DNA of 64,000 nt from Companilactobacillus allii (GCF_001971585.1 NZ_CP019323.1:186001-250000), one strand, 5' to 3'; counted from the first letter of the stretch, positions 33,331-57,676 are shown. The notes: a model not told the origin generated them from the sequence alone. Made by a program: numbers and translations.

Positions 33331-35682
33331 ATGAGAATACATATAAAATTTAGAGTTTTTTATTTAATATTCTTCTTTTTCATTAGTTTGATTTTTTGTG
33401 CGACCAAAACTGTGAATGCGGCTGACATTGACGACGGCATCACAAACTGGAAAGTTTCATCATACAATGAAGTTCAATCACTCCCAATCGGTGGCAATCT
33501 CTCGTTAGGCTATGCCTTTGGTCTAGCTGCTGATAAGAACTACCAAGTAGCTGATCATCTGGATTCAACTATGACAACAGACTCTGTTGCCATAAGTACC
33601 GACAATGCTTATTATTCAAAAATAAACACCTTTTTAAATAATAATGGTAAGTACATTTCTGCAATATTCCAATCTGGTATTACTGGAACTGGGGGCTTAC
33701 CACAACAATCAGTCTCGCTTTCTTCTCCTGACTTTATGATCGTTCCAAATAATAATTCAAGTACTGCTACCGGGAAAGATTATTCTTTATTAACAAATGC
33801 ACTAAAGAACAAACAGTACTATATAGGAACAGACGATAACGGTAATAAAGCCTTCAAAATAGTTGGTGACTTCCAAAGAAATGATTCTTTTGGAAATTTC
33901 AATTTGAAAGCTGAGATACTTCTTAGAGCATCTCAAAGTAATTCTGCAGTTGTCTATAGAGAACTATACTTACAAAACAATACTACCTCCACTCAATCCT
34001 TCGGTGTTTTATATGGTGAGGATACCTACCTAAACGACTCTGATATTGTTGCTATTCAAGATCTTGGCGATCAAAGTGGCTTCTTTATCCAAAATGGTAA
34101 TTACAAGCTAATGGTAAGTAAAAATGTTCCTGACGGCCCTTCAAACTACATCGGTCAAGAAAACAATACCGGTTTGAATTGGTTAGCTGGATTCATCCCT
34201 GCGAACTTCTCAGGTACTGGTGCTGAGGCTAAGTCATTTAATTATGGTGACAATATCATGAATAAAAGAGGAGATTCTACATATACACTGAAGTGGCCAT
34301 ATACAACACTTGCCCCCTCTCAAACTGCACACTATGCATCTACCATCGGTGTCACAGAGGCACCTTACTCACTGCCAGTCGCGGGGAAAACTTATACCAA
34401 TGAAACTAGTAGCGACAAGTTGAACCGCGTTGGTGACAAGTTAAAATTCAACTTAAAAATTGGTAACTATGGATTCAACAGTAAATGGTCATACGATGAT
34501 CTGGTAGATAAAATACCCGACGGACTTCAAATTGATACAAGTACAATCAAAATGACTACGGCAAGTGGCACACAGAACATTTCCTCTGACGTCTATGATT
34601 CATCAAGTAAAACTTTGACCTTTTATCCAAGTGTTCTATTAACGGATGGACAAAGTGCAACGATTTCCTTTGAGGCAACAATCACCGAAAGCGCAAGTAA
34701 TCAAACACTAAGCAATACTGCTAATTTCACCGGACACGACGCTATTAACACTTCAGATGGTAGTAAAACCTACAATGCCTCAGTAGATATTCCGGTCGAA
34801 AAATCATCATTTGAATATACCTTTACTAACTTAGTAAAAAACGAAACTAAAGGTGACAGTGATTTTTCCGAAAAAACCGATGCAGTTGCTGGTGATATAG
34901 TCGACTATCAAATAAAATTCGGTACAAACTCGGATAGTAAAGATTATTTCACTGGTGGACAATTAAAAACTTCTATCCCTGATGGTATGACCTTTGTAAG
35001 TGGACAAATTATAGGTTCTGATGGCTGGACTGGTTCCGCATCACCTGATAGTAATGGTAACTTTTCATTAGGTATTGGTAATGTTGGTAATGGAACATTT
35101 GCGACGTTGAACTTTAAAGCCAAAGTATCACAGGCTTCAGCCGGTGTCATTACTAGTACAGCAAATATGTCCGGTACCACAAGTACTGGAATTTCCACAG
35201 GTGACATGGTATCTAATGTCGCTCAAGTAGATATAAGTGATGTAGTCGGTTTTACCGAAACACCACGCTTAATAGACTTTGGTACAACCAACTTTGCTGG
35301 TAAAGAAAAGTCACTTACTAACGTTGCCACAACTGGACAATTAATAGTTAACCATCCTACTGAAGACAATTATTACGTTCAAGTTGGCTTTACAAATGCC
35401 AATACTGAACAGATGGTTAATAGCAATGGCGATGCTCTTTCACCTTCGGCTGATGGATTAATGTTTTTGAAGCAGCGTGTAGATTCTGATACAGACACCG
35501 GTACTTGGACACCGATTCCGTCGAATCCTTCGAGCATTCCAATTAAGTCTGGGACCTTTAATGGTAGTCAGAATCTAACTAATTACATTGGTGTTGGTGC
35601 TTGGAAGCTTTATCTTGGATCTAATACTAAATCTGGTAATTATTCTGGGACACTTACTTGGTCCTTGACTGATGCACCTTAG
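33331..35682 (+). CDS. Secreted cell-surface protein with DUF11-like repeats and C-terminal WxL domain
   Basis: A 783-aa exported protein with a signal peptide ending at about residue 31 (VNA before ADIDDG). Residues 350-640 hold two repeats resembling DUF11/isopeptide-forming beta-sandwiches (DKLKFNLKIGN, VDYQIKFGT). The last 140 residues look like a WxL domain: TPRLIDFGTTNF at its start and LTWSLTDAP at the very end, the typical distal W-x-L motif. WxL domains bind peptidoglycan non-covalently. No LPxTG or TM tail is present, consistent with that. GGGG precedes the ATG. It stands alone, without the DUF916 and LPxTG partners of classical csc clusters. Confidence 0.82.
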   Translation: MRIHIKFRVFYLIFFFFISLIFCATKTVNAADIDDGITNWKVSSYNEVQSLPIGGNLSLGYAFGLAADKNYQVADHLDSTMTTDSVAISTDNAYYSKINTFLNNNGKYISAIFQSGITGTGGLPQQSVSLSSPDFMIVPNNNSSTATGKDYSLLTNALKNKQYYIGTDDNGNKAFKIVGDFQRNDSFGNFNLKAEILLRASQSNSAVVYRELYLQNNTTSTQSFGVLYGEDTYLNDSDIVAIQDLGDQSGFFIQNGNYKLMVSKNVPDGPSNYIGQENNTGLNWLAGFIPANFSGTGAEAKSFNYGDNIMNKRGDSTYTLKWPYTTLAPSQTAHYASTIGVTEAPYSLPVAGKTYTNETSSDKLNRVGDKLKFNLKIGNYGFNSKWSYDDLVDKIPDGLQIDTSTIKMTTASGTQNISSDVYDSSSKTLTFYPSVLLTDGQSATISFEATITESASNQTLSNTANFTGHDAINTSDGSKTYNASVDIPVEKSSFEYTFTNLVKNETKGDSDFSEKTDAVAGDIVDYQIKFGTNSDSKDYFTGGQLKTSIPDGMTFVSGQIIGSDGWTGSASPDSNGNFSLGIGNVGNGTFATLNFKAKVSQASAGVITSTANMSGTTSTGISTGDMVSNVAQVDISDVVGFTETPRLIDFGTTNFAGKEKSLTNVATTGQLIVNHPTEDNYYVQVGFTNANTEQMVNSNGDALSPSADGLMFLKQRVDSDTDTGTWTPIPSNPSSIPIKSGTFNGSQNLTNYIGVGAWKLYLGSNTKSGNYSGTLTWSLTDAP

Positions 35683-45131: not shown

Positions 45132-45241
45132 GTGTGCCAAAACACAATTTTCTCCGTCTAATAAAAAGAAGCCGACATTTACTTACGTAAATATCGGTTT
45201 TTTTTGCATTATACTCGAAAAATGAACGTGTTCCGTCACAC
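45132..45241. repeat. Long palindromic intergenic element, family 1, copy C
   Basis: Left end GTGTGCCAAAACAC, right end decayed to GTGTTCCGTCACAC; centre GCCGACATTTAC/GTAAATATCGG. Between the convergent acyltransferase and sortase-substrate genes; it supplies the last codons and stop of the latter. The left flank (TTTTTCTACTCA...) is also shared with copy B. Confidence 0.8.
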
Positions 45242-47347
45242 TCTACGTTTCTTCTTATATCCGAATAGACCTAAAAATGACATCAAGGCTAATCCTAGAA
45301 TGCTTAATAATCCACCATTTGACTCGTTTGTCTGTGGAAATGTTTCTTTTCCATCCACACTACTTGCAGAATCATTTGTTGTATTAATTGTTGTGGAGTC
45401 ATTATTTACTTTTTCATCAGCTTTGTTCTCTTCTGATACATCAAGCAAATCATCGCTAGAATCTTCTTTTGATGTGTCATCAATCTGTTCGTCATCTGTA
45501 TTATCAGATTCATCTGGTAATTCACCGGGTATTGTCACAGGTTTTTCAGGGTCTACATCGTTGTCTTCTTCCGTATTGTCTGATCCATCTGGCAATTCAC
45601 CCGGTATTGTTACTGGCTTTTCAGGGTCTACATTGTTGTCCTCTTCACCTGAATCACCAGGTTCATCTGTATCTCCGGGTTCGTCGGTGTCACCAGGTTC
45701 ATCCGTGTCACCAGGTTCGTCTGTGTCGCCTGGTTCATCCGTGTCACCAGGCTCATCTGTATCTCCGGGTTCATCTGTGTCGCCAGGATCTGGAATCTCT
45801 TCTTCCCAATCATCCTCATCCCCGGGATCTTCTTCGTCAGTTGACCCTGGAATTTCAGCTGGTGCGGGAAGTGGTTGAATTCCATCAAAGGCAGTCTCTT
45901 CTTCAGTGTTATCTTGTAGATCCCATCTGTGAGTTTCACCCTTTATATTTACTTTGTCGGCAACAATATTACCGTCCAAGTTATGATTGACAGTTATCTC
46001 AGCCTTGGGAGCAAGAACGCTACCTTGGAAAGTATTGTTAAAGTTTATGTTTCCTGTGTATAAATTATCGGATGCATCACTATTATAGAAGTTCCACAAC
46101 AGATGATTGTCACCAAAATATTCAGTTTCTTTATTATTTCTCTCTGAGCCATCGCTATATATAATCTTTAGTTGAGAACCAACTTCGTATGGATCGACAC
46201 CGTGCGTATCGACGTTAATTATGACAGTATCACCTGTTTCAACATCAGAAAGTCCTCTGATTGTCAATGGTGTACCTTGTTGTAACACTTCTGGTGATAA
46301 GTAAATTACAATTTGATTATTATCATTGGCTACCATATTTTCCAAATCTATGACACGATTATTCCGATCAGGAAATTGGTCATTAGTAATCAATGCTACA
46401 TTATCGGAATCAACTATTTTACTTGGATCTAGTGTAGTAAGATTTGTGGATTTTTGGTATAAGTCATTGAATATTGAAGCAAAGTCGATATACTTTTCAG
46501 CTTTGTCTTGATACGTTTCATCAGCAGTTAAATGATCAATGTATACTTCTTTTCCATCTGGCAAAGAAAGTAGCGGTCTATTTGGATTGGATACATCAAC
46601 TTCCATACCATTACCAAAAACGACTTTATTAGTACGAGTACTACCACCTGACACAAATGAACTACCGGCAATATTCTCAATAGCCTGAATATATGAAACA
46701 TCGTAGTCGACTAATTCTTCCTTAATATTGGTTCCAAAATTTACCTGACCATCCAGTAATCCAGTGGCCACATTACCATTGGTATGTGTATTTAAATGAG
46801 CTTCATTCGCAAAAATATGAAAATATGCGGCATATCCTAACTCATTTAATTCTGGGTGCAAATTGAATCCAGTATTATTACTTTCACTATACTTCTTAAT
46901 ATCATTCGCAAAAGTACCACCATCTTTTACAACTGATTCAGCTTGTTGACTGGCAGTCGTATTAGCTACTGGCTGGTTTGCAACAGTTGAATTCTTTGTT
47001 ACTGGAGTTTGTGATACTTGTTGTTGATTTGTACTTTGGTTTTGATTATCTTGTTGTTCCTGATCTAAAACTTGATTAGAATCCTGATTGGAAGCTTGAC
47101 TTTGATTTTCATCAACAACACTTTGATCAGTTGATTGATCTGAATCAGAGTTGGAATCTGAATTAGAATTTGTATCTGAACTTGTATCTGTAGTCACACC
47201 ACTTTGTTCAACTTGACTATCTGGCGTAGATGGGTCTGTTAGTGTATCACTAGCAAAGGCATTATTTGAAATAATCATGAATGAAAGAACGGCAGCACTC
47301 GTCGCTACACACGACAAAGCCCATTTTTTTCCTTTTAAATTATTCAT
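45236..47347 (-). CDS. Cell-wall anchored surface protein with choice-of-anchor A domain
   Basis: A 703-aa secreted protein. The signal peptide (residues 1-32) ends near NAFA. A Ser/Thr/Asn/Gln-rich linker runs to ~145. A folded region (~145-480) resembles the choice-of-anchor A domain found in adhesins (YFHIFANEAHLNTHTNGNVATG ... FQGSVLAPKAEITVNHNLDGN). Then come acidic Pro-rich repeats, seven GDTDEP units and two PEKPVTIPGELPD units. The tail is FPQTNESNGG, a hydrophobic helix and KKKRRV. FPQTNE departs from LPxTG but fits the lactobacillus LPQTxE form with Phe for Leu. Likely sortase-anchored adhesin. Confidence 0.8.
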   Translation of the reverse strand: MNNLKGKKWALSCVATSAAVLSFMIISNNAFASDTLTDPSTPDSQVEQSGVTTDTSSDTNSNSDSNSDSDQSTDQSVVDENQSQASNQDSNQVLDQEQQDNQNQSTNQQQVSQTPVTKNSTVANQPVANTTASQQAESVVKDGGTFANDIKKYSESNNTGFNLHPELNELGYAAYFHIFANEAHLNTHTNGNVATGLLDGQVNFGTNIKEELVDYDVSYIQAIENIAGSSFVSGGSTRTNKVVFGNGMEVDVSNPNRPLLSLPDGKEVYIDHLTADETYQDKAEKYIDFASIFNDLYQKSTNLTTLDPSKIVDSDNVALITNDQFPDRNNRVIDLENMVANDNNQIVIYLSPEVLQQGTPLTIRGLSDVETGDTVIINVDTHGVDPYEVGSQLKIIYSDGSERNNKETEYFGDNHLLWNFYNSDASDNLYTGNINFNNTFQGSVLAPKAEITVNHNLDGNIVADKVNIKGETHRWDLQDNTEEETAFDGIQPLPAPAEIPGSTDEEDPGDEDDWEEEIPDPGDTDEPGDTDEPGDTDEPGDTDEPGDTDEPGDTDEPGDTDEPGDSGEEDNNVDPEKPVTIPGELPDGSDNTEEDNDVDPEKPVTIPGELPDESDNTDDEQIDDTSKEDSSDDLLDVSEENKADEKVNNDSTTINTTNDSASSVDGKETFPQTNESNGGLLSILGLALMSFLGLFGYKKKRRV
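45655..45790 (-). repeat. In-frame 18-bp tandem repeats (GDTDEP units)
   Basis: Seven units with nearly constant protein sequence but varied third codon positions, in the wall-spanning stalk of the surface protein. Copy number may vary between strains. Confidence 0.85.
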
Positions 47348-52359: not shown

Positions 52360-52489
52360 TTGTTTGCTTCGCAAACGCGTAAAAACACACAATTTCTTCC
52401 GCTTAGCGCTAAAAATAGGGTCTTCACTTTCGTGAAGGCCCCTATTTTTTGTGCTAATGCTCGGAAATTCCCGTGTGTTTTTACGCTCT
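52360..52489. repeat. Long palindromic intergenic element, family 2, copy 2
   Basis: Same layout as 35891-36020. The outer arms are GCGTAAAAACACAC / GTGTGTTTTTACGC and the apex is TAGGGTCTTCACTTTCGTGA AGGCCCCTA. Both arms differ from copy 1 at several positions with matching changes on the other side. Between convergent dtxR-type and GT-C genes. Confidence 0.85.
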
Positions 52490-54071
52490 ATTTTTCAGAT
52501 TCATCCAATTTCACCTCATACCAACCAAGGAGTCGTTTAACATTTTCAACAGCACGTTCAAACGAAAATGTTCCCAACAATAATAGACATGGCAGGTACT
52601 GAATTAGATAACGACTACGACCACCTTCAAATAGCAGTAAGAATAAGAATCCACCTACCATTGATAGTCGTAGGATTTGAATAATATTTTGACGTGGTCC
52701 AAACCCTAACGCAATGATCATCAATAATGCGATCCACCACAACTGTGCAGCAAATCTGAAGTCAGCAATATGTTTTCCGTACAAATAAACATAATTCTTA
52801 ATTTTGTTACTGATTCCTTTATTATTCGTTTTTTGATTATCACGGAAGAAATGTCCCTCTTTTAACCAGCCAAAAGTCCCGTCCGCAGTATTATTACGTT
52901 GCTTCATAGCTAAGAACTTCAAATAACCTAGTGGGCCTAATTTTTTCAAACGCCTAGTCAACATCTCAATTGAATAATCCGTTTTCTCTTTTTTGGTTCG
53001 TAAAACAGACATCTCAACAGCCTGTTTAGTGTTATATCCACCTTCGCCGTAAACACCCATGGCCATAAAGTGGATCGGTGGGATCGAAAGTGACTTATCT
53101 ATCTTGATATAAGTTTGATTTTGAATCACATTGCTAGCAGTTTTATAGGTCAAACCCGCACTCCCGCCAACTAGAATCAAAACGGAAAAGGTCAGAATTG
53201 TCCCTTTCAAAGTGAAGTGCTTTTTTTGAACCAGCCATGTTAATAATTCAATAATAACAATTGCGATAGCCGGAACGATGGCTGATGGCTTAACAAAATA
53301 TGTTAATACCAAACTAACACCACAACCGATGGACGATAACACAAATATCAATTGAGCTAAAGAATTTTTAAAACTTAATGAATTGCGCATAAGGAAATAG
53401 CAGAGCAAGAATAGTGAGATAAATGGTAATACCCATGCATCTGTATAAGGCATGATGATACTTGGGAATACAGCTAACCAAGCACAATGAATGTACATGG
53501 CAACTCCCAATAAACGCTTACGAACAACTACAACACTCAATAGATTGAAAATCGCAGATAGATCTACCAAGGCCAAAGTAACATAATCAAAAAACTGCCA
53601 CGAAGTCTGTCCGCTGACTTCTGTTAACCAATGCATCCCCAACATACTCAAGATATTATTGGGATATAGGCTGTAATACGCAATAGTATTGACCTCTTTG
53701 GCATGTTCAGCACTAATAGCCGCATAATGTAGCGCTCCTGCATCGAATCCAGCAACTGGATGTACATATGATACAAAAACAACCTGACCTATCAACACGG
53801 CCAATAACATCAGCCCTGAAGTTATCAATTGATGTTTCACAAATACATTGGAAAACCAAGCATGTATCTTGGGATAGGCATAATTGAGTACTGCAATGGC
53901 AATGATCAAAATAACCAACCCTGAAGTCACCATAGTGGTACTAGTCCCAAACGTGTCATTATCACCAATAATAATATTGGATGATGTTAAAGCAAAAAAG
54001 AGGGTTAAAAAGAATAGAACCCTCCAAAAAATATTAATTATTGTATGACTGAAATTATAAAATCTACGCAT
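52488..54071 (-). CDS. XrtG-associated polytopic membrane protein, GT-C-like
   Basis: A 527-aa protein with about 11-13 TM helices. The first outer loop carries HPVAGFDAGALHYAA, with the acidic residue expected for GT-C (Dol-P-Man/ArnT-like) glycosyltransferases; later GGRSRYLIQYLP resembles the final GT-C segment. It matches the integral membrane protein that accompanies exosortase G clusters. Last gene of the operon; overlaps the PTPS-like gene by 8 bp. The donor and acceptor are unknown; glycosylation outside the membrane is the likeliest role. Confidence 0.7.
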   Translation of the reverse strand: MRRFYNFSHTIINIFWRVLFFLTLFFALTSSNIIIGDNDTFGTSTTMVTSGLVILIIAIAVLNYAYPKIHAWFSNVFVKHQLITSGLMLLAVLIGQVVFVSYVHPVAGFDAGALHYAAISAEHAKEVNTIAYYSLYPNNILSMLGMHWLTEVSGQTSWQFFDYVTLALVDLSAIFNLLSVVVVRKRLLGVAMYIHCAWLAVFPSIIMPYTDAWVLPFISLFLLCYFLMRNSLSFKNSLAQLIFVLSSIGCGVSLVLTYFVKPSAIVPAIAIVIIELLTWLVQKKHFTLKGTILTFSVLILVGGSAGLTYKTASNVIQNQTYIKIDKSLSIPPIHFMAMGVYGEGGYNTKQAVEMSVLRTKKEKTDYSIEMLTRRLKKLGPLGYLKFLAMKQRNNTADGTFGWLKEGHFFRDNQKTNNKGISNKIKNYVYLYGKHIADFRFAAQLWWIALLMIIALGFGPRQNIIQILRLSMVGGFLFLLLFEGGRSRYLIQYLPCLLLLGTFSFERAVENVKRLLGWYEVKLDESEK

Positions 54072-54492
54072 CTGATTCGTCCTGTTTTTTTTGTTCTGAC
54101 TTAATTTCTGATTCAGTTGGTATGTTTCGTCCTGTTACATCAATACAAAATGATCGAGTTGGTGAATCACTGACTTCGATCCTTAATAACATGGCACCGT
54201 TATCTTTCAAGATGCCATCAACTTTATCAAAGAGATATTCAGTCACATTTTCGACGGTTGGATTAATGACTTTAAACTCTGGTAAATCATTTAAGTACTT
54301 GCCAGACAATTCATCAATCGCTGCACTCAAAGACTTCTCAATATCAAAAAAAGAAACCATACCTTCGAAGGCATGCAACTCACAGACTATCTCCCAAGTA
54401 TGGTTATGCTTCTTACCAGTACCTGACTTCCAACGAACTGCATGACTAGCATTTACGTATGATTTGATTTTGTATGACCGTTGTTTAATCAT
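54064..54492 (-). CDS. 6-pyruvoyl-tetrahydropterin synthase (QueD)-related protein of the exosortase G system
   Basis: A 142-aa T-fold protein. The zinc-ligand histidines are visible: His17 (NASHAVRW) and His29/His31 (KKHNHTWE). The catalytic Cys normally between them is missing (WKSGTGKKHN), and the closing Glu motif is weak (IEVSDSPTRSF). It is therefore PTPS-like but unlikely to carry out the standard reaction. The tail (last 20 residues) is charged. Its place between GT2 and GT-C genes is the conserved XrtG arrangement. GGAAGG precedes the ATG. Confidence 0.78.
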   Translation of the reverse strand: MIKQRSYKIKSYVNASHAVRWKSGTGKKHNHTWEIVCELHAFEGMVSFFDIEKSLSAAIDELSGKYLNDLPEFKVINPTVENVTEYLFDKVDGILKDNGAMLLRIEVSDSPTRSFCIDVTGRNIPTESEIKSEQKKQDESDA

Positions 54493-54495
54493 GAA

Positions 54496-55851
54496 TCATT
54501 TTCCTTCCCTATCTTTACTACGCTGTTCTTTAACCGTTTTAACATCATCTTTGAAAACACTTTGCAACTGAGTTATCTCTGTATTGATATTCTTCATTTG
54601 CCAAGAAGATCTAGTCGTCATCCCGTTGATGATCCCAATCAAACGTATCCACGAACAGATGAACATATATACAGGTAGCGTCATAACGACCCACCACAAC
54701 TTCAGATAATAATGTTGCTCATCATGATATTCACGCAATAGAATACCGACACTGATAAAGTTGATCAATCCGACAAATACATATAGTGCATAGATCAATA
54801 TGTATGATAACAACAAGATTATCGGCGAATATCCAAAAGCTATCAAAACAAAACTCGCAAAGGTCCAGATCATTCTAGGAAAACTGAAGGTATGATCAAT
54901 AATCATCCGACGAACCAAAAAGTTGTTAAAGAACTCCTTTAAACCGGCTGTTTTGGCCATATAGTTATGGGCAACTTCCATCTCACCACGTTGCCATCGC
55001 TGCCTTTGAGTATACAATTCATTCAATCCAGAAATCGGCTCACAATAAAAAATGGCATTGGAACAAATAACGACCTTTTTACCAAGTCGTGTCCGAATCT
55101 GAAAAGTCATATCAGTATCCTCACCAATAGTATCAATATCATACAAGAATGTTTCCATTAATACTTCTCGTCTAAAAGCTGAGAATGCACCTGACATTGT
55201 AAACAACTGATCACGTGAGGATTCAATCGTTCGACCAGATAGGAAAGCTTGAGCATATTCGTAATATTCATTTTTGGCCAAAATACGATGCCAAAACCCT
55301 TTAACATTTTGAACCATTGAAGAATTGGGCAATATAGCCCCCGTCATGGCCGCAATACTTGGGTCATTCTCAAATCGTAGCACCATATTCTTAACTGCAT
55401 TAGGTTCTAGTACACCATCACTATCAATATTGATTACATAATTACCAATACTCTCATAAATGGCAGTATTCAACGCCTTAGCCTTACCATTATCAGTATT
55501 AACATAGCGCAAAATCAATTCTGGAAAGGTGTTTTGTGCCTTCGCATAGACGCCGAAGCTATCATCTGTACTCTGATTGTTCGCTAGTACGATCTGCATA
55601 GCTTTCTTGGTATACGTCTGATTATTTATCGATTCAATACATGCAAATAAAGTATCCTCTGAATTATAGACTGGCACAATAATGGAAACCCATGGCCACT
55701 TGCCAGGAGCTTCTAGTTTTGGCTCATGCAAATGCATATACATCAGCTTAATGGTCGATACGATTGCTGGGATTATTTCAACAACAATCGGGATCAATGC
55801 CCAAGTGATCCAAAATCCCATCCGGCTCAAAGCTAAATTGATCCAGTACAT
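54496..55851 (-). CDS. GT2 family membrane glycosyltransferase, exosortase G-associated
   Basis: A 451-aa processive-type glycosyltransferase. One N-terminal TM pair is followed by the catalytic domain: VSIIVPVYNSED, a NIDSDG metal site near residue 143, a GEDTD motif near 245 and TQRQRW (QxxRW) near 286. Several C-terminal TM helices follow, as in polysaccharide synthases. The product could be an extruded glycan or a lipid-linked sugar. ATG 55851 overlaps the xrtG stop (TGATG); the frame opens one codon earlier at GTG 55854 and I cannot decide between them. Confidence 0.88.
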   Translation of the reverse strand: MYWINLALSRMGFWITWALIPIVVEIIPAIVSTIKLMYMHLHEPKLEAPGKWPWVSIIVPVYNSEDTLFACIESINNQTYTKKAMQIVLANNQSTDDSFGVYAKAQNTFPELILRYVNTDNGKAKALNTAIYESIGNYVINIDSDGVLEPNAVKNMVLRFENDPSIAAMTGAILPNSSMVQNVKGFWHRILAKNEYYEYAQAFLSGRTIESSRDQLFTMSGAFSAFRREVLMETFLYDIDTIGEDTDMTFQIRTRLGKKVVICSNAIFYCEPISGLNELYTQRQRWQRGEMEVAHNYMAKTAGLKEFFNNFLVRRMIIDHTFSFPRMIWTFASFVLIAFGYSPIILLLSYILIYALYVFVGLINFISVGILLREYHDEQHYYLKLWWVVMTLPVYMFICSWIRLIGIINGMTTRSSWQMKNINTEITQLQSVFKDDVKTVKEQRSKDREGK

Positions 55852-56450
55852 CACTGTTTATGATGCCCCCAATCTAAGAATTCTCGATAAATTCCACGTG
55901 TCAACTGAGAATAAGTGAATACATTGTAATACAATGCAATAACCAGCACATAGAAAACTAATCGTCCAATAACCGAGTGAGCTAGAAAGAAAGCACTACC
56001 ACCACCAAAATGAACAATCGTTATAACGATAATCAAGCGCAAAACATTACTCAAATAAATAAAAACCAAACCGAAAATAGCATAGAATACCTTCTCCTTA
56101 CGCTTATACATTGGAAAAAATACCGTCAAAGCAATAAACGCACAAGTTTCTATAATTCCGGAACATTCGTAATCAATCGACATTACTACAGGATTGTGCC
56201 CATTTGTGATGTAAACAAGTCCTGTTTTTAACATCACATTACTCCAATTAGTTATTCTGCTGAATAAATCCACCCCGTGTATGACGGCATGGGTAAAAAA
56301 CCAGACCCAATATGGCCGACTAATTGCTGTGAGAATAAAGAAAAGTCCAGCACTACCAACGATGAAGAAGAAAGCAGATAGCTGGGCTCGCTTTAGCACT
56401 GACAACACATACAGCCATACCACGATGCCTAGCAGGATATATACGTTCAT
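55851..56450 (-). CDS. xrtG: Exosortase family protein XrtG
   Basis: A 199-aa membrane protein with about six TM helices and the exosortase/archaeosortase catalytic triad: Cys96 in SIDYECSGI, Arg138 in LSNVLRLI and His158 in FFLAHSVIG. Exosortases cleave and re-anchor C-terminal sorting tails, in parallel to sortase. The upstream gene encodes a protein with such a tail and the next three genes are the known Gram-positive companions. AGGA lies 10 nt before the ATG; the stop overlaps the GT2 start. Confidence 0.9.
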   Translation of the reverse strand: MNVYILLGIVVWLYVLSVLKRAQLSAFFFIVGSAGLFFILTAISRPYWVWFFTHAVIHGVDLFSRITNWSNVMLKTGLVYITNGHNPVVMSIDYECSGIIETCAFIALTVFFPMYKRKEKVFYAIFGLVFIYLSNVLRLIIVITIVHFGGGSAFFLAHSVIGRLVFYVLVIALYYNVFTYSQLTRGIYREFLDWGHHKQ

Positions 56451-56488
56451 AAAATATCAGTCCTATTATTTAATTTGTAAAACATAAA

Positions 56489-57676
56489 CTACTTACCAGA
56501 AATACGTAAGTCCTTCTTATCTAAGTAGCCTTTTCTCTTAAGCTGAACATAACCGAGAATAGCCACAACAGCACCAATTCCAGAAAGTAGGATTGGGCCA
56601 GTTGAACCACCGGCAACAGTAACTTTTTGAGCACCAATATTAGGATTACTCATTGTTATAGTTTGTCCAGTCATTGATGAAACACCAAGTTTACTCATAT
56701 CGATCTTAAACTCAGCCACACTCTTATTATCTACATTAGAAACATAACCAGTACCGACAGTCCCGTATTGATGGCCCTCATTAATATCGCCACCAGTAAG
56801 GCTGATCTTCTTACTTTCGCCAGAGCTTAGATTATTGCTGATATTGTCTGACCAAATATAGAATTTCTTGCCACCAATATCGAAGTTATAATCACCATAA
56901 CCCGGTACGGTACCATTCTTCATTTTGACATAGACGTATATATTATCACCGTCACTAGACATAGCAGTATAACCGTTATATCCTTCTGTCAAAGTCATGT
57001 TCTTCCAATCTTGATACTTACCATCAATATTAGTATTCAAATTATCATTATCATTACTTGCATTAACATCTGTAGGTGTATCACCTTTTTCATTTGTGTC
57101 ACCCTTATCGGTAACTACTCCAGTAGATGTTGTTGGACTTGTAATATTTGTTGACGTAGTAGCTGGGGTATTCCCAATACTATAGGCTCTTACTGAAACC
57201 TTTTGACTAGCTGATGAACTAGAATCATCAAACTTGCTTAGATCAATTCTGAATTCACCTACACCAGAACCATTATCTTGACTTACATAACCAGTACCGA
57301 CAGTTCCGTATTGGTCACCGCCATCCCATTTTCCACCAGTGAAACTAACTTGCTTAGAATCACCACTTGAACCATCAGAAGACTTAGATGACATATAATA
57401 ATCCTTGCCATTGATTGACAATACATACCCTGAACTCGGTACGTCACCGTATTGCATATGAACATAGATATCTGCATATTGTCCATCGCCAACTATGGCG
57501 ATACCACCATTATATCCAGTAGTTAGTTTGGTACTTTGCCAATCAGAATATTGACCATCGATTGCGATATTTGAACTAGTATCATCCGCATTAACTGTTG
57601 CAGAATTCGTAAACACTGTTAACCCTGACAAACCAAGTGCAAGTGCACCTACCATTATCATTTTGTGTAATTTCAT
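56489..57676 (-). CDS. Exported protein with exosortase-type (Firmicu-CTERM-like) C-terminal tail and duplicated CBM9/DOMON-like domain
   Basis: The 395-aa product starts at ATG 57676 (GAGGGGG upstream; a 12-codon longer frame lacks a site). The signal peptide ends at about residue 30 (VNA). Two homologous ~120-residue domains follow, each beginning IDGxYxDW, continuing with GYNG and ending QYGTVGTGYVS; the pattern resembles carbohydrate-binding CBM9/DOMON sheets. A Thr/Asn/Asp linker joins them. The C-terminal tail is AGGSTGPILLSGIGAVVAIL followed by KRKGYLDKKD: a short G-S-T-G-P motif, one hydrophobic helix and basic residues, with no LPxTG. It is the likely substrate of XrtG, encoded 39 bp downstream. 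Confidence 0.82.
   Translation of the reverse strand: MKLHKMIMVGALALGLSGLTVFTNSATVNADDTSSNIAIDGQYSDWQSTKLTTGYNGGIAIVGDGQYADIYVHMQYGDVPSSGYVLSINGKDYYMSSKSSDGSSGDSKQVSFTGGKWDGGDQYGTVGTGYVSQDNGSGVGEFRIDLSKFDDSSSSASQKVSVRAYSIGNTPATTSTNITSPTTSTGVVTDKGDTNEKGDTPTDVNASNDNDNLNTNIDGKYQDWKNMTLTEGYNGYTAMSSDGDNIYVYVKMKNGTVPGYGDYNFDIGGKKFYIWSDNISNNLSSGESKKISLTGGDINEGHQYGTVGTGYVSNVDNKSVAEFKIDMSKLGVSSMTGQTITMSNPNIGAQKVTVAGGSTGPILLSGIGAVVAILGYVQLKRKGYLDKKDLRISGK

Follow-up and report, generated by a model that had tools for sequence, protein, structure and literature searches.

Within a 64,000-nucleotide stretch of the Companilactobacillus allii genome (GCF_001971585.1 NZ_CP019323.1:186001-250000; the whole of this stretch is hereafter the window, and positions are counted from its first letter), five tightly packed minus-strand genes at 52488-57676 make up a complete exosortase G (XrtG) locus, as judged by an NCBIfam profile search in which a protein was assigned to a family when it scored above the curated cut-off of the dedicated model, which all five proteins did. 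These genes encode, in their order along the minus strand, a Firmicu-CTERM surface protein of 395 amino acids (aa) (56489-57676; TIGR04145, 234.1 bits over two stretches, cut-off 50), the 199-aa XrtG itself (55851-56450; TIGR03110, 248.5 bits, cut-off 102.75), which also matches the exosortase/archaeosortase signature TIGR04178 (61.4 bits, cut-off 23), a GT2 synthase-like glycosyltransferase (54496-55851; TIGR03111, 683.6 bits, cut-off 363.95), a PTPS/QueD-like protein (54064-54492; TIGR03112, 123.8 bits, cut-off 69.35) and a 527-aa GT-C fold membrane glycosyltransferase (52488-54071; TIGR03766, 707.5 bits, cut-off 500). An original prediction, made from the sequence, had placed a complete exosortase locus here, with its exosortase at 55851-56450 and a GT-C-like membrane protein among its members, and the family models bear it out, coordinates and gene order included; its finer claims (an exosortase-type tail on the surface protein, a Cys/Arg/His triad in XrtG, a QxxRW motif in the GT2 and a missing catalytic Cys in the PTPS-like protein) also held in the alignments discussed below.

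The packing is such that the xrtG stop codon overlaps the GT2 gene start and the PTPS and GT-C genes overlap by 8 bases. For the surface protein, the start at 57676 is preferred to that of the longest open reading frame (57712) because GAGGGGG lies directly upstream of it, and the GT2 is read from the ATG at 55851, with an alternative GTG at 55854 being possible. A bidirectional hairpin terminator (52418-52441) lies 3' of the last operon gene, and a promoter scan at the operon returned none scoring above chance. The 2.53 Mb host genome holds one XrtG and one Firmicu-CTERM protein, its two TIGR04145 stretches being due to the duplicated ectodomain of that single protein, and among named relatives, Companilactobacillus nodensis has the XrtG most similar to the window's (89% identity). 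By these sequence criteria, the locus is almost certainly a canonical, ordinary XrtG operon, i.e., a further member, in Companilactobacillus, of a type of system that is already known and biochemically unexplored: text searches of the open-access literature found no paper testing XrtG-locus biochemistry, in agreement with the earlier statement that no biochemical function had been shown. What is added here is comparative evidence from outside the window.

Sorting signal, catalytic residues and co-occurrence

The surface protein (hereafter the CTERM protein) consists of a signal peptide, beta-sandwich domains at residues ~38-178 and 215-350 joined by a linker (179-214), and a C-terminal sorting signal, and its AlphaFold2 model shows two confident beta-sandwich domains, a disordered linker rich in S/T/D/N and one C-terminal helix. 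The sorting motif, GGSTGP (residues 356-361; 56594-56611, minus strand), has G356, T359 and P361 invariant and G357, S358 and G360 each at 90% or more in the alignment (A3), and it leads into a transmembrane (TM) helix (residues 361-381, from hydropathy and helix prediction) and a basic tail (together 56489-56596, minus strand). Among 93 CTERM open reading frames, 67 carry G-x-x-T-G-P, most commonly as GGSTGP (52 of the 67 strict matches), and the remaining ones are variants or truncated frames; a few proteins have GGSTGG, GASSAP or GADTGS in place of the consensus motif. The tail consensus as a whole (G-[GAT]-[SP]-T-G-P, a hydrophobic helix and basic residues) extends from Lactobacillaceae through Lachnospiraceae and Coriobacteriaceae. 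In the ectodomain, a DG/DW motif, one Tyr and one Glu are conserved, and the domain may possibly bind carbohydrate. On the enzyme side, the catalytic Cys96 (codon at 56163-56165, minus strand) is invariant in 49/49 aligned XrtGs, and Arg138 (56037-56039, minus strand) and His158 (55977-55979, minus strand) are each kept in 98% of them. PDB sequence searches with the CTERM and XrtG profiles gave nothing usable. XrtG probably processes the CTERM protein at GxxTGP.

The two families also travel together. In a survey of 251 Lactobacillaceae genomes at NCBIfam cut-offs, XrtG was found in 47 genomes (19%) and 15 of 40 genera; a Firmicu-CTERM protein scored over the cut-off in 46/47 of these genomes vs. 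1/204 of the others (Fisher p 4e-48), and a PTPS-related protein in 42/47 vs. 1/204 (Fisher p 6e-41), with the p-values in both cases treating as independent genomes that are related to one another. The PTPS exception lacking XrtG (genome G019) is probably an assembly gap, because its GT2-PTPS-GTC run reaches the contig end, while G229, the exception for CTERM, carries a GT-C gene and a CTERM gene together on a remote island, as do G102 and G175, both of which have XrtG. Islands of Companilactobacillus in which a GT-C gene accompanies a lone 213-aa CTERM gene, with no xrtG nearby, were seen at L281:3411-9834(+), L282 and L283. The PTPS gene is unlinked and elsewhere in the genome in L. plantarum (G243), G151, G015 and G201, and where it was missing from the locus in G020, G175 and G182, it was not found elsewhere in the genome either. 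CTERM-XrtG-GT2 adjacency is kept in nearly all loci across the Lactobacillaceae, those of Leuconostoc and Oenococcus among them, Enterococcus loci have their CTERM gene downstream instead, and members of the system also occur in Lachnospiraceae and one metagenome-assembled genome of Coriobacteriaceae. In one Limosilactobacillus locus (L187:9591-12296(+)), the XrtG-associated GT2 genes stand in tandem duplication. Broken xrtG copies in several genomes (G057, G191 and G234) indicate that the trait is dispensable.

Cysteine-less XrtG-ectodomain fusions of the clostridial branch

Searching outward from the XrtG family cut-off (the class-level search gave the same set as the order-level one) led to clostridial-type genomes whose XrtG relatives form a second, distant branch and score mostly 93-112 bits vs. 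the cut-off of 102.75. A related ectodomain occurs there in three arrangements: as a protein by itself that ends in a C-terminal helix, as the C-terminal part of a PTPS-PF10131 protein, and as the N-terminal part of XrtG itself. Its kinship with the Lactobacillales ectodomain is indicated by a profile comparison (probability 94.5%, the maximum among 100 column-shuffled decoys being 4.3%), the confident alignment of which is short at 30 columns, as well as by weak TIGR04145 matches (E 0.009) and an equivalent gene position.

All ten ectodomain-fused XrtGs (L203:9014-10216(-), L206:7714-8916(+), L202, L205, L232-L235, L240 and L242) are without the catalytic Cys, having ENSG (nine) or ESSG (one) for ECSG; the Arg is kept in 10/10 and the His in all nine that are readable, the tenth frame being cut by a contig end. 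The Cys is kept in 12/12 unfused relatives of the search set and in the remaining 43 rows of the tree, in which the fused proteins form one clade (support 99/95), N and S differing within it; the fusion arose once. The genomes with a fused XrtG, one of them being a single contig, yielded no additional full-length XrtG with the Cys. On the simplest reading, release of the ectodomain protein from its membrane helix requires the Cys, and this step was lost after fusion whereas the remainder of XrtG stayed necessary: a Cys that is dispensable once the ectodomain has become part of XrtG is just what would be expected if the ectodomain were the XrtG substrate. A text search, which did not include the key 2012 comparative paper, returned no earlier report of a Cys-less fused XrtG.

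The proposed glycan-synthesis complex and its rivals

From the computed family identities, co-occurrence, motif, GT-C fold, loss of the PTPS active site and fusions, we infer a cleavage, an acceptor, a glycan and a phenotype as follows. The reading that we favor, at a probability of roughly 55% for the mechanism as a whole, places XrtG in a membrane complex for glycan synthesis, in which it would process the CTERM protein at GGSTGP. In such a complex, the GT2 would build a polymer or a lipid-linked glycan across the membrane from cytosolic sugar nucleotides, the GT-C protein would draw on a polyprenyl-phosphate donor to add sugars at the outer face, and the PTPS-like protein, catalytically dead with a zinc site, would act as a subunit of the glycosyltransferases on the cytosolic side, for regulation or assembly, and not as a pterin enzyme. 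The CTERM protein would be exported by Sec, with its beta-sandwich domains facing outward and its C-terminal helix holding it at the complex, where Cys96 of XrtG would attack G-x-x-T-G-P, remove the helix and join the protein to an acceptor. That acceptor would most likely be a product of the same complex, the CTERM protein then coupling the glycan to the cell surface and promoting aggregation or matrix formation; attachment to a product of the very same operon is, however, a tentative part of the proposal, to which we give somewhat less than even odds. A role in aggregation or matrix retention is suggested by analogy with PEP-CTERM/exosortase systems, which support flocs and biofilm (PMC12188702, PMC9850573), and by the over-expression of the XrtG cluster in self-aggregating, interferon-inducing L. 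plantarum strains (PMC12854382), a report of transcript changes only.

Were the cluster a protein-glycosylation cassette instead, the GT2 would make a polyprenyl-phosphate sugar, the GT-C protein would O-glycosylate the S/T-rich linker of the CTERM protein, and XrtG would anchor the resulting glycoprotein, a scheme that we regard as unlikely, even though the GT-C side of the locus speaks for it. As modeled (predicted local distance difference test score, pLDDT, 87.5), the GT-C protein is closest in the PDB to OST/PglB, ArnT and PMT (Foldseek probability up to 1.00, E 0.016 or worse) and shares the fold of lipid-linked-sugar transferases, protein glycosyltransferases among them; the unstructured linker offers a plausible target, and in the G102, G175 and G229 islands, which lie apart from xrtG, a GT-C gene still has a CTERM gene close by. 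The GT2, however, is closest to the processive polysaccharide synthases rather than to the ArnC/DPMS type: its QRQRW (residues 283-287) is invariant in 45 aligned relatives, its next-best NCBIfam match is PgaC/IcaA (122 bits), and it resembles poly-N-acetylglucosamine (PNAG), hyaluronan and cellulose synthases, the latter two being among its PDB matches, so that surface-polysaccharide synthesis fits at least as well as protein glycosylation. An ArnC/PgfS-like GT2, where present, is an extra gene: the XrtG loci L147:3253-7369(+) and L178:12990-17189(+) carry additional TIGR03766 paralogues together with a polyprenyl-phosphate sugar synthase that is ArnC/PgfS-like (NF047588, 241 bits, short of the cut-off of 500), a neighborhood that fits a lipid-linked donor. 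The membrane proteins adjoining true pgfS genes, moreover, are without a TIGR03766 match. The suggestion of the original prediction that two glycosyltransferases imply a glycosylated surface protein is therefore kept as a possibility, backed by the GT-C fold and not amounting to a result, and it is not favored over surface-polysaccharide synthesis; on the whole, we lean toward a surface polysaccharide, rather than a protein glycan, as the main product of these enzymes.

The PTPS-like protein could, in turn, have pterin or deazapurine enzyme activity and thereby provide a modification of the glycan or of the protein, and the zinc histidines H17/H29/H31, kept in 37/37 relatives, along with an acidic residue at position 109 in 36/37, would agree with that; but the family as a whole lacks the catalytic Cys and the Asp-His dyad of QueD (position 25 being Thr, as here, Glu, Ser or other, and the dyad being replaced by Ser63-Gly64), the QueD model scores 31.3 bits, under its cut-off of 89.25, which leaves the protein outside the QueD/PTPS enzymes, and in other loci the domain is joined to membrane proteins, all of which renders an active enzyme very improbable. 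The fusions suggest a regulatory or docking role: a 365-aa protein (L200:9613-10710(+)) has a sensor-output-like layout of TM segment, extracellular domain, TM segment and coiled coil with the PTPS-related domain at its cytosolic end, and in clostridial loci, PTPS is fused to PF10131 (GT-C-like) membrane proteins, in some of them (L201:8786-12676(-), L207, L208 and L209, the last being the C-terminal part only, seen in one frame) followed, within one long protein, by an internal segment resembling a signal peptide and then by a CTERM-like ectodomain that bears a C-terminal helix of its own. Sequence homology between the PF10131 membrane proteins and TIGR03766 was considered as well and is unsupported at the sensitivity used (hhalign probability 0.9%), the two sharing the same gene place only. 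Finally, XrtG might be mainly a structural or positioning subunit of the glycan-synthesis complex, with proteolysis being secondary and the CTERM ectodomain acting at the synthase. This would accommodate the one clade whose Cys-less fusions retain the whole XrtG domain, seemingly with no Cys-bearing partner, as well as the ectodomains attached to PTPS-PF10131 proteins in other loci, yet it sits poorly with a Cys that is invariant in every aligned XrtG and every unfused relative, and with the conserved tripartite tail of nearly all intact unfused CTERM proteins, and we deem it rather improbable.

Several points weigh against processing of the CTERM protein within a glycan-synthesis complex as well. 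The searchable literature yielded no measured cleavage, acceptor or glycan for any XrtG, and the link to aggregation is a transcript correlation. Pfam gives CBM9 (PF06452) as the commonest family on the ectodomain, weakly so (2/24 members, best E 0.0072) and not on the window's own domain, and a fold search with the whole two-domain CTERM model returned generic beta-sandwich and antibody matches only, with TM-scores ≤0.30. The fusion and the loss of the Cys share a single evolutionary origin (one change), so their correlation counts as one event, and the retention of the Arg and, where readable, the His in the Cys-less fusions means that XrtG may have a non-proteolytic role everywhere. A tentative idea, which we hold at less than even odds, is that XrtG is a permanent subunit of the glycan-synthesis complex and uses its Cys for nothing but freeing the CTERM ectodomain, the clostridial fusions being natural substrate-fused exosortase pseudoenzymes and the dead PTPS fold a regulatory domain able to sit behind an extracellular sensor. 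Pairing one exosortase with one dedicated target, the XrtG system occurs in food-grade lactobacilli, which are routinely studied by gene deletion and mass spectrometry and in which exosortase chemistry and the attachment target could, thus, be settled. Its fused Cys-less relatives provide a natural experiment that points to which substrate belongs to the enzyme and also to a further role that is not catalytic.

Other anchoring routes and known systems

The original prediction had credited this cell with three anchoring routes (sortase, WxL and exosortase), of which family models uphold the first and the last. An LPXTG-type protein is encoded at 45236-47347 (minus strand; TIGR01167, 29.3 bits, cut-off 15.9), and it combines long PGDTDE repeats with a putative ice-binding-like adhesive domain (PF20597); the large secreted protein at 33331-35682 (plus strand) is not recognized as WxL by NCBIfam or Pfam at E ≤ 0.01, its C-terminal GTLTWSLTDAP being WxL-like by eye only. 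Sortase/LPXTG anchoring resembles the XrtG system in its tripartite signal and in the Thr-Gly of its motif, and differs in that the enzyme families are unrelated. The PgfS/PgfM1/PgfM2 system of S. mutans (PMC5856776) likewise pairs a GT2 with membrane proteins acting on a surface protein; TIGR03766 was considered as the PgfM1/PgfM2 family and rejected on the grounds of the large membrane proteins beside true pgfS genes mentioned above, and the locus thus falls outside Pgf.

The archaeosortase ArtA/PGF-CTERM is of the same enzyme superfamily as XrtG, and its C-terminal processing is, according to work cited in PMC11980579, experimentally shown; ArtA products are lipid-modified. The PEP-CTERM/EpsH (XrtA) system of Gram-negatives shares the Cys/Arg/His membrane protein, the tripartite C-terminal signal and nearby polysaccharide genes (PMC1569441), the XrtG system being set apart by GxxTGP in place of PEP, one dedicated target, the lack of an outer membrane, and its PTPS and GT-C subunits. 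The nearest counterpart is the XrtG/Firmicu-CTERM system as seen in, e.g., L. plantarum (LP_RS09075-09090; PMC12854382), with which the window's locus has in common five families scoring over their cut-offs, the same gene order and a dedicated single target, and from which it differs in nothing essential, the PTPS gene being located elsewhere in the L. plantarum genome examined.

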